From Pedobacter sp. (GTDB taxonomy: Bacteria > Bacteroidota > Bacteroidia > Sphingobacteriales > Sphingobacteriaceae): 64,000 nucleotides of DNA. A program made the translations under genes and the position numbers. Under the pieces are notes generated by a model. It had not been told where the DNA came from. It ran no database searches and saw only the letters and a program-made list of their open reading frames with translations. The stretch spans positions 124,001-188,000 of the forward strand of contig JAVHXV010000006.1 of the NCBI GenBank assembly GCA_031119475.1, in the 5' to 3' direction. Shown one piece after another: positions 31,612-36,399 of this stretch; positions within the stretch are counted from its first letter, which is position 1; the number at the start of each line of letters is the position of its first letter.

Positions 31612-32313
31612 ATGAAAAGATTCATTGTGCTCATCGCCTGTTGTTTTTTGATTGGAAAGGCAAATGCCCAAAAAGACTCGACGGGCTTCCATATTATCAG
31701 CAAAGCCGAAACTGACGCATTTTTCTCTGCCAGCTTCAAAAAGAAAAACCTGATCAATTATCCCATATTTAGGGCCTATACTTATACCGATAAAAGCGGC
31801 AACTACTATGTTGCGCTTACCGAAAGTGCCGATACTACCAATACAGAGAAAGATACTGTAAACTTCACGATCAAAGCCTTCAATTTTAAGGCTGATCAAA
31901 GTCCTATTGTCAAGAAATGGGAGATCAATGATTTTAGGCTACCCAATGTGAAGAACGAAGTAAAGGAAACTTCTATCTGGTTCTGGACCAAATACTGCTC
32001 TTTTACTGACCTTGATGGCGATGGACTGGCAGATCCGGTTATTGTTTATGGAACTTTCGGGCACGATGGTTATTCTGATGGCAGGGTAAAGATCCTAACC
32101 TTTTACAAAGGCCAGAAAGTGGCCATCAGGCACCAGAACAGCACACTGGACCCCATGCGTAAAATGCAGGTCGATGCCACATTTTATGCCCTGCCGAAAA
32201 AAATACAAGATCATACCAAACAGCTGATGGCGACCATGATGGAAAAGAAACATGCGCTGTTCCCTTCCTCCTATCTCGAAAAAATGGAAAAAAAGATAGC
32301 TTTGATCAATTAG
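31612..32313 (+). CDS. hypothetical secreted protein (possibly the M949_RS01915 surface polysaccharide biosynthesis family)
   Basis: Signal peptide MKRFIVLIACCFLIGKANAQ; FTDLDGDGLADPVIVYGT; family name from memory only. Confidence 0.65.
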   Translation: MKRFIVLIACCFLIGKANAQKDSTGFHIISKAETDAFFSASFKKKNLINYPIFRAYTYTDKSGNYYVALTESADTTNTEKDTVNFTIKAFNFKADQSPIVKKWEINDFRLPNVKNEVKETSIWFWTKYCSFTDLDGDGLADPVIVYGTFGHDGYSDGRVKILTFYKGQKVAIRHQNSTLDPMRKMQVDATFYALPKKIQDHTKQLMATMMEKKHALFPSSYLEKMEKKIALIN

Positions 32314-33587
32314 TGCTTTCTTTTCTTGTTCATCACCGCTTTCTTACCGATCCCATAATTTGTAGTCTTGGCATTGCTGGCCTTTTTTTGATGGAAAGCA
32401 GCGCCATAAGGTGATTCCTCTTCTGCCTGCCTACCCTTTGTTTTGGTGGTTTTTTGCTCGACCAATAGTTCTTCAGGGAGCGCTGCGAGCTCAATCTTGC
32501 CGCCCATGGCCTGTTCAATTTTTCGCAGTTCCGGAAGTTCGAGATCAGTTACAAAAGTTAATGCAACCACTTCATCACCTTCTTTTTTGATTACCCTGTT
32601 CAAATAGATCTCTTTATGCGGAGGCAGTTCAAAATGGAAGATAAATGGAATATTGCCCAAATCTGCGGTATCACCAATTTCGTTGGCGATGATCAGCACT
32701 CGTGCCTCCACGTCTGCCACAAAATCTTCAAGGTTATCAAAACCAGCTTCATCAAAAAAAAGCGGCTTGTACACAAATATGTCTTTCGCCTTCCCATCAA
32801 AGAGATCTTTAGATAGCGTTTGTGCAGTAAGCCGTGTATTGACAAAAACAATCACCTTATCAAATACCTCCGAATCTTTCAATAGGATATTCAGCAGGTT
32901 TAACTTGGTACGGAAATTTGGGACATGATACAGGAGTTGGGTATGGGTTTCTACCATTGCTTCACCCATTTCCTCGACCTCAATTGTGGCCGGCATTTTC
33001 ATGAAAGGCTCGATCATCTGCTCCAAACGATCGTGCATCACGTCGGTAAAAATTAGGTGCTGGCTTTTCTGCACGCTATTGGCCAATTCATTGATCGGCA
33101 ATTGCATGCCCAAACGCACCATCTCTGCGGCGTCATCCACCACAAAAAGCTGGATCTTATTTGTATTTAGGCCCAACTTAAGGTAAACTGCCCTAGCTCT
33201 AGCCGGCACGGCCACCACAATATCTACGCCGTCTGTCAGTTCGTTTACCTGTGCTTCCATACTCCCATCAGCATGTATGCCAACGATGCGAAAAGTCGAA
33301 TTCCGATTGAGCAGTTCGAACCTTTCGATCACTTCTAGCACCTTTTCTTTGGTCGGAACCAAGATCAATGCACGCGGTGCTTCTTCAAACCCATATTTTA
33401 AGCGCATCAAACTGGCCAGTACGTAGGTGGTCGTTTTGCCACATCCCTCTGGGCCAACAGCGATGAGATCTTGTCCGCCTAAAATACGCGACATCGATCT
33501 AGACTGAATTTCTTTTGGTGCAAGATACCCAGCGGCAGTCATGGCCGATACCAAAGGCTTACTTAGTTTTAATTTTTCTAAAGACAC
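32310..33587 (-). CDS. divergent DEAD/DEAH-box helicase-like protein (degenerate motifs)
   Basis: GPEGCGKTTTYVLASLMRL Walker A, VVDDAAEM at the DEAD position; GTG at 33587 preferred because TAAATTTG promoter element lies at 33612-33619. Confidence 0.78.
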   Translation of the reverse strand: MSLEKLKLSKPLVSAMTAAGYLAPKEIQSRSMSRILGGQDLIAVGPEGCGKTTTYVLASLMRLKYGFEEAPRALILVPTKEKVLEVIERFELLNRNSTFRIVGIHADGSMEAQVNELTDGVDIVVAVPARARAVYLKLGLNTNKIQLFVVDDAAEMVRLGMQLPINELANSVQKSQHLIFTDVMHDRLEQMIEPFMKMPATIEVEEMGEAMVETHTQLLYHVPNFRTKLNLLNILLKDSEVFDKVIVFVNTRLTAQTLSKDLFDGKAKDIFVYKPLFFDEAGFDNLEDFVADVEARVLIIANEIGDTADLGNIPFIFHFELPPHKEIYLNRVIKKEGDEVVALTFVTDLELPELRKIEQAMGGKIELAALPEELLVEQKTTKTKGRQAEEESPYGAAFHQKKASNAKTTNYGIGKKAVMNKKRKH

Positions 33588-33611
33588 TTTTCTAGGATAA
33601 ATGATGATCGG

Positions 33612-33619
33612 CAAATTTA
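33612..33619 (-). promoter_or_regulatory. Bacteroidota -7 element TAAATTTG
   Basis: TAnnTTTG on the minus strand upstream of GTG 33587. Confidence 0.5.
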
Positions 33620-33723
33620 CGCAAAATAAAGGAGCTTGATGAGGCCAAACAACAATCCTCATATTTTTATAATCTGGACTGTAGCGTTTGGACATGGGCA
33701 TGCGTATGAGCGTAAAACTGACA

Positions 33724-34119
33724 ATGAAAAAGCTACCCTATATTTTGGCCTTGCTGCTGTTCATCACAGCGTGTAAAAAAGAAAACAATGCGATTACTTT
33801 TAGTGGAAATTACCAAGGGCAACAGATTATCTATAGTAATCACTCCTTAGAGACACATGAATCTGAGATCAACCTTTCCAGTCCGAATTTCAGTGTACTA
33901 AAGGGCATCAAGAAAGGAAGCGGTACTTTTGCAGTAACCAATAAAATGGAGGTTGTTTTCACGGATACCAATGTATGGACTGCAGATTTTAATTGGCACA
34001 TTTTGTTGAACGGCAGCTATAAATATGAAGCTTTAGGCGATAGTTTGATTTTAACTAAATATATTGGCGAAAACAAAGAGAACTATTACCAATATCGACT
34101 AAAGCGCGTAGACGAATAG
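33724..34119 (+). CDS. hypothetical lipoprotein
   Basis: MKKLPYILALLLFITACKKENNA lipobox; abuts the sigma gene. Confidence 0.7.
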   Translation: MKKLPYILALLLFITACKKENNAITFSGNYQGQQIIYSNHSLETHESEINLSSPNFSVLKGIKKGSGTFAVTNKMEVVFTDTNVWTADFNWHILLNGSYKYEALGDSLILTKYIGENKENYYQYRLKRVDE

Positions 34120-34671
34120 ATGCCGCAATCCATCCCACAATTATCCCAATTGGTTTCCGATTGTAAAACCGGCAATCTACAAGCTCAGGAACGGCTTTAC
34201 AAGCATTTTTATGGGTATGGCTTGGGCATTGCCATGCGGTACCTGATGAACAGGGACGATGCGATGGAGGTAGTGAACGATTCTTTTATCAAGGCCTTTA
34301 AAGCTTTGGGCACATTTAAGGAAGACGCAGATTTTAAGCCCTGGTTCAGAAAGATCTTGGTCAATACGGCTCTCGACCACAAGCGCAAGAACATGCGGTT
34401 TAACCAGGCCATCGAGATGGTAGATACCGAGATACAGACAACTTATACCTCTGGTGTAGAAAACCTGCAGGCAAAAGATATTTTAGACCTATTGAAGCAT
34501 TTAAATGAAACACAACACTTGGTTTTTAACCTTTACGAAATAGATGGATATTCCCATAAGGAAATATCCACCCTGCTAAATATGCCGGAAAGCTCATCGA
34601 GGACTTATTTGAGCAGGGCAAAACAGGTACTGCAAAGTTTATTGATCAAGCACTCAATTTATACAAGATGA
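34120..34671 (+). CDS. RNA polymerase sigma-70 family (ECF-type) factor
   Basis: MNRDDAMEVVNDSFIKAFKALGTFKEDADFKPWFRKILVNTALDHKRK; region 4 EIDGYSHKEISTLLNMPESSSRTYLSRAKQVL. Confidence 0.93.
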   Translation: MPQSIPQLSQLVSDCKTGNLQAQERLYKHFYGYGLGIAMRYLMNRDDAMEVVNDSFIKAFKALGTFKEDADFKPWFRKILVNTALDHKRKNMRFNQAIEMVDTEIQTTYTSGVENLQAKDILDLLKHLNETQHLVFNLYEIDGYSHKEISTLLNMPESSSRTYLSRAKQVLQSLLIKHSIYTR

Positions 34672-35981
34672 TGGATTTAGATGAAGAATTAAAGTCAAGG
34701 ATCAAAGCCGTCTTCGATAATCTCGACGATGGGGAAAGCGATAAGGGCTGGGCAGAATTGCGCACTAAATATCCTGATCCGAAGCGAAAGCTACCGCTAT
34801 ATTGGATCACTGGCATTGCTGCGACCTTGGCACTGGTGTGCGGACTATGGCTGCTCAGAAAGCCTGCTATTGTGCCGAAAAACAATGAAAACAGTGTGCA
34901 TGTTAACAGCAAGGCCAATAAAAAAGCTGATCCATCTTCAGCACCTGCCGATTCGTCAATTTCAGTGGCACAGGAAAGACCAACTGCACAGCAGATTGTT
35001 CCAGTTCCATTTACCCATAAACAACAACATTCACCAGTAAATACGTCTTTGCAACAGGTTACGGTTATTTTACCTCAACCCCTATTTGAAGAAAAACGGC
35101 CTGAACAAATATCTACAGAAAAACCGATGCTTACGGCTACATTGGGTCCAAAAACAGATCAGATACACATTGGAACAACCGGTTTGCCGCTGATTGGTCT
35201 ACAACCCTCGCCTCCCTTGCCCCAGCAGCAGACAACCACACTTGAATTCCTCAAATCGGAGTCGCAACTTGCCGCAACAAATGCCGATCAACACAAAAAG
35301 TCAAATTCGGCGCAAAAAAGAACCTACGAAGTATTTACAGGGACCTTTCTGAATTATTATGGCGAAAACCAATCGAAGGTAAACGCAGGCTTTGGGCTCA
35401 ATACCAATGTAAAACTGGCCAGTAAGTTGTATGTGAGCATTGGTGCGGGATTTAGCAAGAATAACATTTCCTTTAACCATAACGCCGTTTCCACTGAGTC
35501 GCCAAACGCCCTATCGACCGTTGCGCCTACCCAAGGCTTTGCGGCAAGCAACTCCCTTTCGTTCGTTAAATCGACCGATGTTTCCCTTGCAAAGCTCCAG
35601 GCGCAACTGCTCAGCTTAGACTTTCCGGTGGTGATGAAGTTCTATCCAGCTAAAAAACAGCATTTTTATATCGCTGCAGGTTTTAATTCCAACTCCTACT
35701 TCGCCCAAAAATATGCCTATACCTATGCTGTAGTTACCCGATCGGCTTTTGCTACCTCGAGCTATAACCGCGAAGAGATTGAAAAAAAGGATTTTAGCAG
35801 TTTTGAATTTGCCAATAGTGCCATTTTTGCCATCGGTGTAACCCAAAAAGTAGGACAGCAGAACCACCTTATTTTTGAGCCTTATTTTAAACCTGCACTC
35901 AGTCAGATGGGCGACAAAAACCTGAAGATCAATACCATCGGATTAAATCTACGTTTCAGTTTTACCCCAAATCGAAACTAA
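34668..35981 (+). CDS. single-TM protein with C-terminal outer-membrane beta-barrel (candidate dual-membrane anti-sigma factor)
   Basis: ATGA overlap with sigma gene; ~43 aa cytosolic N-term, TM LYWITGIAATLALVCGLWLL, P/Q/T-rich linker, barrel-like C-term ending LNLRFSFTPNRN. Confidence 0.75.
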   Translation: MMDLDEELKSRIKAVFDNLDDGESDKGWAELRTKYPDPKRKLPLYWITGIAATLALVCGLWLLRKPAIVPKNNENSVHVNSKANKKADPSSAPADSSISVAQERPTAQQIVPVPFTHKQQHSPVNTSLQQVTVILPQPLFEEKRPEQISTEKPMLTATLGPKTDQIHIGTTGLPLIGLQPSPPLPQQQTTTLEFLKSESQLAATNADQHKKSNSAQKRTYEVFTGTFLNYYGENQSKVNAGFGLNTNVKLASKLYVSIGAGFSKNNISFNHNAVSTESPNALSTVAPTQGFAASNSLSFVKSTDVSLAKLQAQLLSLDFPVVMKFYPAKKQHFYIAAGFNSNSYFAQKYAYTYAVVTRSAFATSSYNREEIEKKDFSSFEFANSAIFAIGVTQKVGQQNHLIFEPYFKPALSQMGDKNLKINTIGLNLRFSFTPNRN

Positions 35982-35982
35982 C

Positions 35983-36399
35983 ATGAAAAAATCGATCTAT
36001 CTGCTCGTGGTTTGCAGTTCCATTCTTTTTTTGGGATGCAAAAAAAATCCGGACGACAACCTATCTGGAACCTATAGTTTAAAATTGGACGAATCCAGAA
36101 ACATGCCTGAAAATGGGAAAGCTGGCTTGCTTTCTCTTGTTGAACTTCAGGACAATCGTTGCCCAGAAAACATTTTCTGCCTAACCAGCGGTATGTCTTT
36201 TCTCAAGATCAAGCTTATAGACCAAAAAAAACAACAAGTACTACAATTCTGTTTTGATGTGTGCGATCGAAGAGATCAGGTGGTACGGCTGAATGGAACA
36301 TACTATACTATACGTTTAGAAAATGTGCTTCCTTTGCCTCCAGGCGGATCAGCAACACATCGGCCAACTGCTACCTTTACTATTTCAAAGATAGAGTGA
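35983..36399 (+). CDS. hypothetical lipoprotein
   Basis: MKKSIYLLVVCSSILFLGCKKNPDD lipobox; directly follows 34668..35981. Confidence 0.7.
   Translation: MKKSIYLLVVCSSILFLGCKKNPDDNLSGTYSLKLDESRNMPENGKAGLLSLVELQDNRCPENIFCLTSGMSFLKIKLIDQKKQQVLQFCFDVCDRRDQVVRLNGTYYTIRLENVLPLPPGGSATHRPTATFTISKIE

Follow-up and report, generated by a model that had tools for sequence, protein, structure and literature searches.

A putative Dma-type sigma/anti-sigma operon of Pedobacter and a conserved predicted promoter associated with lipoprotein genes

The sigma/anti-sigma locus and its orthologs

The window, by which we mean the whole 64,000-nucleotide stretch of Pedobacter sp. DNA analysed here, carries a sigma gene and an anti-sigma gene with a lipoprotein gene on either side. 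All four open reading frames of the initial annotation were found at their coordinates, including the ATGA overlap of the sigma and anti-sigma genes. The features of the locus are as follows.

33680..33707, + strand: promoter TGTAGCGTTT-N13-CGTAT, predicted target of the window sigma factor and autoregulated promoter of the operon
33724..34119, + strand: lipo1, lipoprotein of 131 aa, predicted output, at the head of the operon
34120..34671, + strand: sigma gene, Das-like ECF sigma factor of 183 aa
34668..35981, + strand: anti-sigma gene, 437 aa, overlapping the sigma gene by ATGA
34668..34796, + strand: putative cytosolic anti-sigma domain, residues 1-43, two predicted helices, 61% mean pairwise identity
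34800..34856, + strand: predicted inner-membrane helix, residues 45-63, hydropathy peak and AlphaFold helix
34857..35318, + strand: low-complexity, predicted periplasmic tether, residues 64-217, containing a short, conserved helix (191-206)
35319..35960, + strand: predicted 8-stranded outer-membrane beta-barrel, residues 218-431, from AlphaFold, Foldseek and PF13568 in relatives
35983..36399, + strand: lipo2, lipoprotein of 138 aa with a D-x-R-C-P-x4-C motif, predicted output

In the open reading frame list lipo1 starts at a TTG codon at 33688. The ATG at 33724 yields a signal peptide and a lipobox, and since these and the spacing to the promoter fit, it was taken as the start. The DEAD-box helicase gene upstream, as listed (32310-33701, - strand), runs over the promoter at 33680-33707; its true start is probably near 33593, because its homologs begin about 36 codons later. 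No terminator was found on the + strand between the anti-sigma gene and lipo2 in a terminator scan, a kind of scan that, like that for consensus sigma-70 promoters, performed no better than on shuffled sequences.

The window sigma factor is an ECF sigma factor (Pfam Sigma70_r2, 3e-12; Sigma70_r4_2, 9e-14), 60-77% identical to the sigma factors of the orthologous operons and 28-30% identical to das2 gene products (E 3e-23 to 3e-25). Proteins of the Dma family are encoded beside a cognate sigma factor of group ECF21; the neighbour here is an ECF sigma factor homologous to das2. The source genome (assembly of 3.72 Mb, 89% complete) also encodes a second, diverged sigma/Dma-like pair (G000:C15:82138-82644, L187) with an anti-sigma protein of 383 aa, and a third sigma gene (C5:68543, L186) whose partner has 253 aa.

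A scan of named genomes for orthologs returned 20 loci, which gave a set of 19 operons from Pedobacter and Nubsella when a duplicate on one contig was counted once, a locus cut by a contig end was omitted and the window was added. The anti-sigma gene comes after the ECF sigma gene in all 19, and the flanks are mostly kept, with a divergent DEAD helicase gene upstream and an S9 peptidase gene downstream. The arrangement is thus not a product of chance, as the 19 operons keep the pair together and their conservation matches the claimed domains. A single contig of P. panaciterrae O48 holds two oppositely directed copies of the lipo1-sigma-anti-sigma operon (L113, L114), possibly an assembly artefact, and Pedobacter sp. 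ASV12 carries a tandem duplication of lipo2 (L102, 6342-7252).

Domain plan and kinship of the anti-sigma protein

The anti-sigma protein found no relative in Pfam, NCBIfam or PDB sequence searches, and none of the known anti-sigma domain models matched its N-terminus. Its anatomy was therefore read from a full-length AlphaFold model built with a 20-sequence alignment, from hydropathy and from conservation by domain, all of which agree with the N-terminus of about 43 aa, single helix and P/Q/T-rich linker proposed in the initial annotation. Helices were predicted at residues 4-17, 23-34, 45-63 and 191-206, with disorder from 64 to 190, and the hydrophobic peak spans residues 44-63. The tether (residues 64-217, 154 aa) consists to 55% of P/Q/T/S/N/A, is modelled with pLDDT below 50 and is responsible for the low mean pLDDT of the whole model (51). 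Mean pairwise identity among the ortholog operons is 61% for the N-terminus, 63% for the transmembrane helix, 19% for the tether (residues 64-190) and 60% for the barrel, and tether length varies between 105 and 155 residues. Such a high-low-high course of identity would be expected of a protein whose two ends are functional and whose middle merely spans a distance.

The C-terminal barrel that had been proposed was recovered in the model as eight strands between residues 218 and 431, with pLDDT of about 70-82 in the better parts. The best PDB matches in Foldseek were Legionella machine porin III, the OmpA transmembrane domain and Ail (E 3e-5 to 8e-4), with OmpX at E 5e-3. As TM-scores were low (0.2 by query, 0.3-0.5 by target), we limit the claim to strand count and fold class. 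The outer membrane beta-barrel family PF13568 (OMP_b-brl_2) was found in one ortholog at 5e-4 and in five paralogs at 3e-7 to 3e-3. The model thus gives a single transmembrane helix, a long disordered tether and, with moderate confidence, a C-terminal beta-barrel, the features by which the Dma family is recognized, and one polypeptide seems to extend all the way from cytoplasm to outer membrane.

These features recall Dma1/Das1 and Dma2/Das2 of Bacteroides thetaiotaomicron, in which an N-terminal sigma-binding domain (predicted in our protein), a transmembrane helix, a disordered tether and a C-terminal barrel likewise accompany an adjacent ECF sigma factor (PMC13088901). In that species dma2, das2 and a DUF4943 gene form one operon, with DUF4858 and BT_1555 genes next to it, and on deletion of dma2 the neighbouring DUF4943 gene and das2 are among the most induced genes (PMC13088901). 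A search with DUF4943 led to two Bacteroides-like genomes with exactly the B. thetaiotaomicron dma2 gene order, in both of which the DUF4943 protein adjoining dma2 is a lipoprotein. The dma2 proteins of these genomes aligned end to end with two paralog families of Pedobacter (profile match probabilities of 96%, E 3e-9, and 91%, E 9e-7), and the window anti-sigma family matched the same paralog families at 98-99.6%. The direct profile match between the dma2 proteins and the window family was weak (35% probability, E 4e-4), near the detection limit, so that homology to Dma is supported by a chain, through paralog families that match both. The conserved helical N-terminus of 43 aa (61% identity) aligns with the dma2 N-terminus. 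Architecture, neighbouring sigma factor, barrel model and transitive homology thus agree with the initial assignment, and support the window protein as an anti-sigma factor of the Dma/EcfO-Reo type, linked to dma2 through intermediate families. It differs from the Bacteroides proteins in its host, Pedobacter, and the window lipoproteins are neither NigD nor DUF4943 proteins by Pfam. A further mark of the Dma family is that loss of the anti-sigma protein frees the sigma factor and increases vesiculation.

Within the genus, DUF4397-sigma-anti-sigma paralog operons of other Pedobacter genomes (L035, L036, L038, L174, L203, L208) have the same domain plan, a homologous barrel (hhalign 99.6%), a lipoprotein gene before the sigma gene and the same promoter class, and differ in that the lipoprotein is DUF4397 (PF14344), the -10 element is mostly CGTTT and the sigma factor is about 42-45% identical. 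Anti-sigma factors of the FecR type, which work with SusC/TonB receptors, also convey an outer-membrane signal to an ECF sigma factor, but there sensor and anti-sigma factor are separate proteins; the window has one polypeptide and no SusC/SusD neighbour.

A promoter motif and the genes that follow it

Alignment of the regions upstream of the ortholog operons revealed the motif TGTAGCGTTT-N13-CGTAT, which precedes 19/19 operons exactly or with one mismatch and with an invariant spacer of 13 bases. It lies before lipo1 where this gene is present and otherwise 61-129 bases before the sigma gene, and the site at 33680-33707 is its sole exact copy in the 3.72 Mb genome. Among 99 genomes, exact copies of the CGTWT form were found in 56 of 60 from the same genus versus 1 of 39 from other genera, and the reversed motif, used as a control, had no exact copy within the genus. 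Sites with at most one mismatch numbered 40 in eight relatives, versus one for the control. When up to three mismatches were allowed, the motif was no commoner in the window's own genome than its reversed control, and we therefore used only sites with zero to two mismatches that had outside support, namely the exact site, one with a single mismatch and one useful site with two. Within the window, lipo2 has no motif of its own.

The form of the -10 element follows the type of sigma factor. CGTAT was found at 18/18 sites in genomes that have only the window sigma type and at 18/123 in the rest (Fisher 4e-13), in a hand tally of the 99-genome site list that ignores phylogenetic kinship. Upstream of das2 in the two Bacteroides-like dma2 operons (L228, L229) we observed a TGCAGCATTC-N12-CGTCT-like sequence, whose resemblance to the Pedobacter promoter, at two loci, is only suggestive; a site before nigD in another locus (L241) was excluded as a copy of the motif because its spacing differs.

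We inspected 56 motif loci, in which 52 sites had a following gene. This gene encodes a lipoprotein in 45/52 (40 by a fixed rule and 5 by eye) and is a sigma gene in three, on a background of about 14% lipoprotein-like ORFs (binomial about 2e-31, kinship ignored). Because the binomial ignores relatedness, the family count is the safer figure: the motif-bearing genes represent 19 unrelated lipoprotein families among 22 non-sigma families. In the window's genome, the one-mismatch site precedes a gene for a lipoprotein of 121 aa (C1:230772) and the two-mismatch site one for the lipoprotein C7:43648; two other genomes encode relatives of the latter (38% and 36% identity), which have the site too. 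A DUF4397 target was expected, and none of the DUF4397 genes of the window's genome carries the motif; in genomes with only the window sigma type, the DUF4397 gene lies away from the sigma gene and has kept the promoter.

Three loci (L199, L200, L201, at 1501-1735) show a different arrangement, in which an exact promoter of the CGTTT form leads into some 190 nt of conserved non-coding sequence that ends in a strong terminator hairpin, with a convergent transporter-like gene opposite in two of the three. The element matched nothing in Rfam and no tRNA or tmRNA, has a fold z-score of -2.15, and is a candidate for a sigma-dependent small RNA.

The flanking lipoproteins and a proposed envelope-sensing switch

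Both lipoproteins have clear lipoboxes (LFITAC-KK and LFLGC-KK) and belong to no family in Pfam, NCBIfam or PDB sequence searches; Pfam scans found no NigD domain in either, and no PF12667 in the window's genome. For lipo1, AlphaFold predicted a small all-beta, lipocalin-like barrel of eight strands (pLDDT 79.5) with weak Foldseek matches to GrlR, potempin E and FABP (E 0.007-0.07).

The initial annotation had proposed that the two lipoproteins may be part of the signalling unit. Were one or both of them parts of the sensor, binding barrel or tether and tuning sigma release, their place in the same operon would serve feedback, which would suit an autoregulated operon, and their positions are indeed tight: lipo1 lies 0-4 bp from the sigma gene in every operon where it is intact, and lipo2 begins 1 bp past the anti-sigma gene. 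Their distribution speaks for another role. Intact lipo1 was found in 10/19 operons (the window and nine others); it is absent from 8/19 and broken in one, that of P. helvus, by an early stop codon. Lipo2 is present in 5/19 and missing from 14/19, and the pair is nonetheless retained. Of the synteny that was to be checked, the adjacency of intact lipo1 to the sigma gene thus held and general conservation of the two lipoproteins did not. Conversely, lipo1 and lipo2 stand side by side without the pair in about ten genomes of the genus, in one case at the same site of the chromosome (L084), in several genomes next to truA. Other pairs have an unrelated lipoprotein upstream, DUF4397 in the lipo1 position of the Pedobacter paralogs and, in a Bacteroidales genome, NigD in that position with a one-base overlap with the sigma gene, and from this alternation of lipo1, DUF4397 and NigD it is the lipoprotein beside the pair, not one protein, that recurs. 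A role within the sensor is thus unlikely. Since the promoter precedes lipo1 or the sigma gene, and lipoprotein genes of 19 unrelated families, the flanking lipoproteins are most probably outputs, the part that NigD plays for EcfO-Reo in Phocaeicola vulgatus, and lipo1 and lipo2 themselves carry or follow a promoter of this type.

A related sigma gene is present in every same-genus genome examined, and in most of them there are several; the paralogous pairs have sites of this class as well, so the motif could belong to another sigma factor of the genus, the window operon being just one target of that regulator. We regard this as quite improbable, given that the -10 variant tracks sigma type as described above and that a site stands before the sigma operon at all 19 ortholog loci, the usual sign of ECF autoregulation; the motif may, for its part, be read by more than one sigma factor of the genus. 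The barrel end of the protein is open to a similar doubt, in that the moderate confidence and low TM-scores of the model would also suit a periplasmic sandwich or barrel in a protein that spans the inner membrane only, an ordinary anti-sigma factor cut by proteases. Eight amphipathic strands, best matches that are outer-membrane barrels only, PF13568 in one ortholog and five paralogs, and barrel profile homology across three subfamilies make such a protein very unlikely.

The gene order, domain anatomy, conservation, promoter and promoter-lipoprotein association found by computation are, taken as a whole, probably best explained by an envelope-sensing switch of the Dma (EcfO-Reo) kind, whose sigma factor would read the motif and drive its own operon together with scattered lipoprotein genes. 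Residues 1-43 would keep the ECF sigma factor bound at the inner membrane and the C-terminal barrel would sit in the outer membrane, the disordered tether joining both ends. A disturbance of the outer membrane, or a ligand, would be sensed by the barrel and relayed via the tether, and the sigma factor would be freed. It would then read TGTAGCGTTT-N13-CGTAT promoters, one of which would drive lipo1-sigma-anti-sigma-lipo2 and others the scattered lipoprotein genes, and the outcome would be a changed set of envelope lipoproteins.

A switch with lipoprotein products agrees with the induction seen on dma2 deletion and with the NigD data of P. vulgatus (PMC13088901, PMC9308784, PMC13114119). EcfO-Reo of P. 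vulgatus and Bacteroides fragilis likewise has an anti-sigma factor with a predicted outer-membrane barrel and is induced by envelope-damaging toxins (PMC9308784, PMC13114119). Its P. vulgatus regulon includes three NigD surface lipoproteins (PMC13114119), and NigD appears only on loss of the anti-sigma factor, under envelope stress or in the gut; one nigD gene adjoins ecfO-reo by locus tag, and a lipoprotein beside such a pair is therefore not new (PMC9308784, PMC13114119). The window lipoprotein families are, unlike these, unrelated to NigD by Pfam, and the accessible text of the two sources was not found to describe a sigma-promoter motif or the signal (PMC9308784, PMC13114119).

The system is therefore of a known kind in a new genus, and what is new is the promoter and the wide range of lipoproteins in its regulon. 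In a limited literature search we found no earlier description of the Pedobacter promoter and lipoprotein regulon, nor any account of the targets of Dma-type sensors outside gut Bacteroides. The defined promoter and its lipoprotein-rich regulon, in a non-gut genus, allow the output of a Dma-type sensor to be tested directly. They also suggest a broader rule, of which the NigD link of gut species would be one case.
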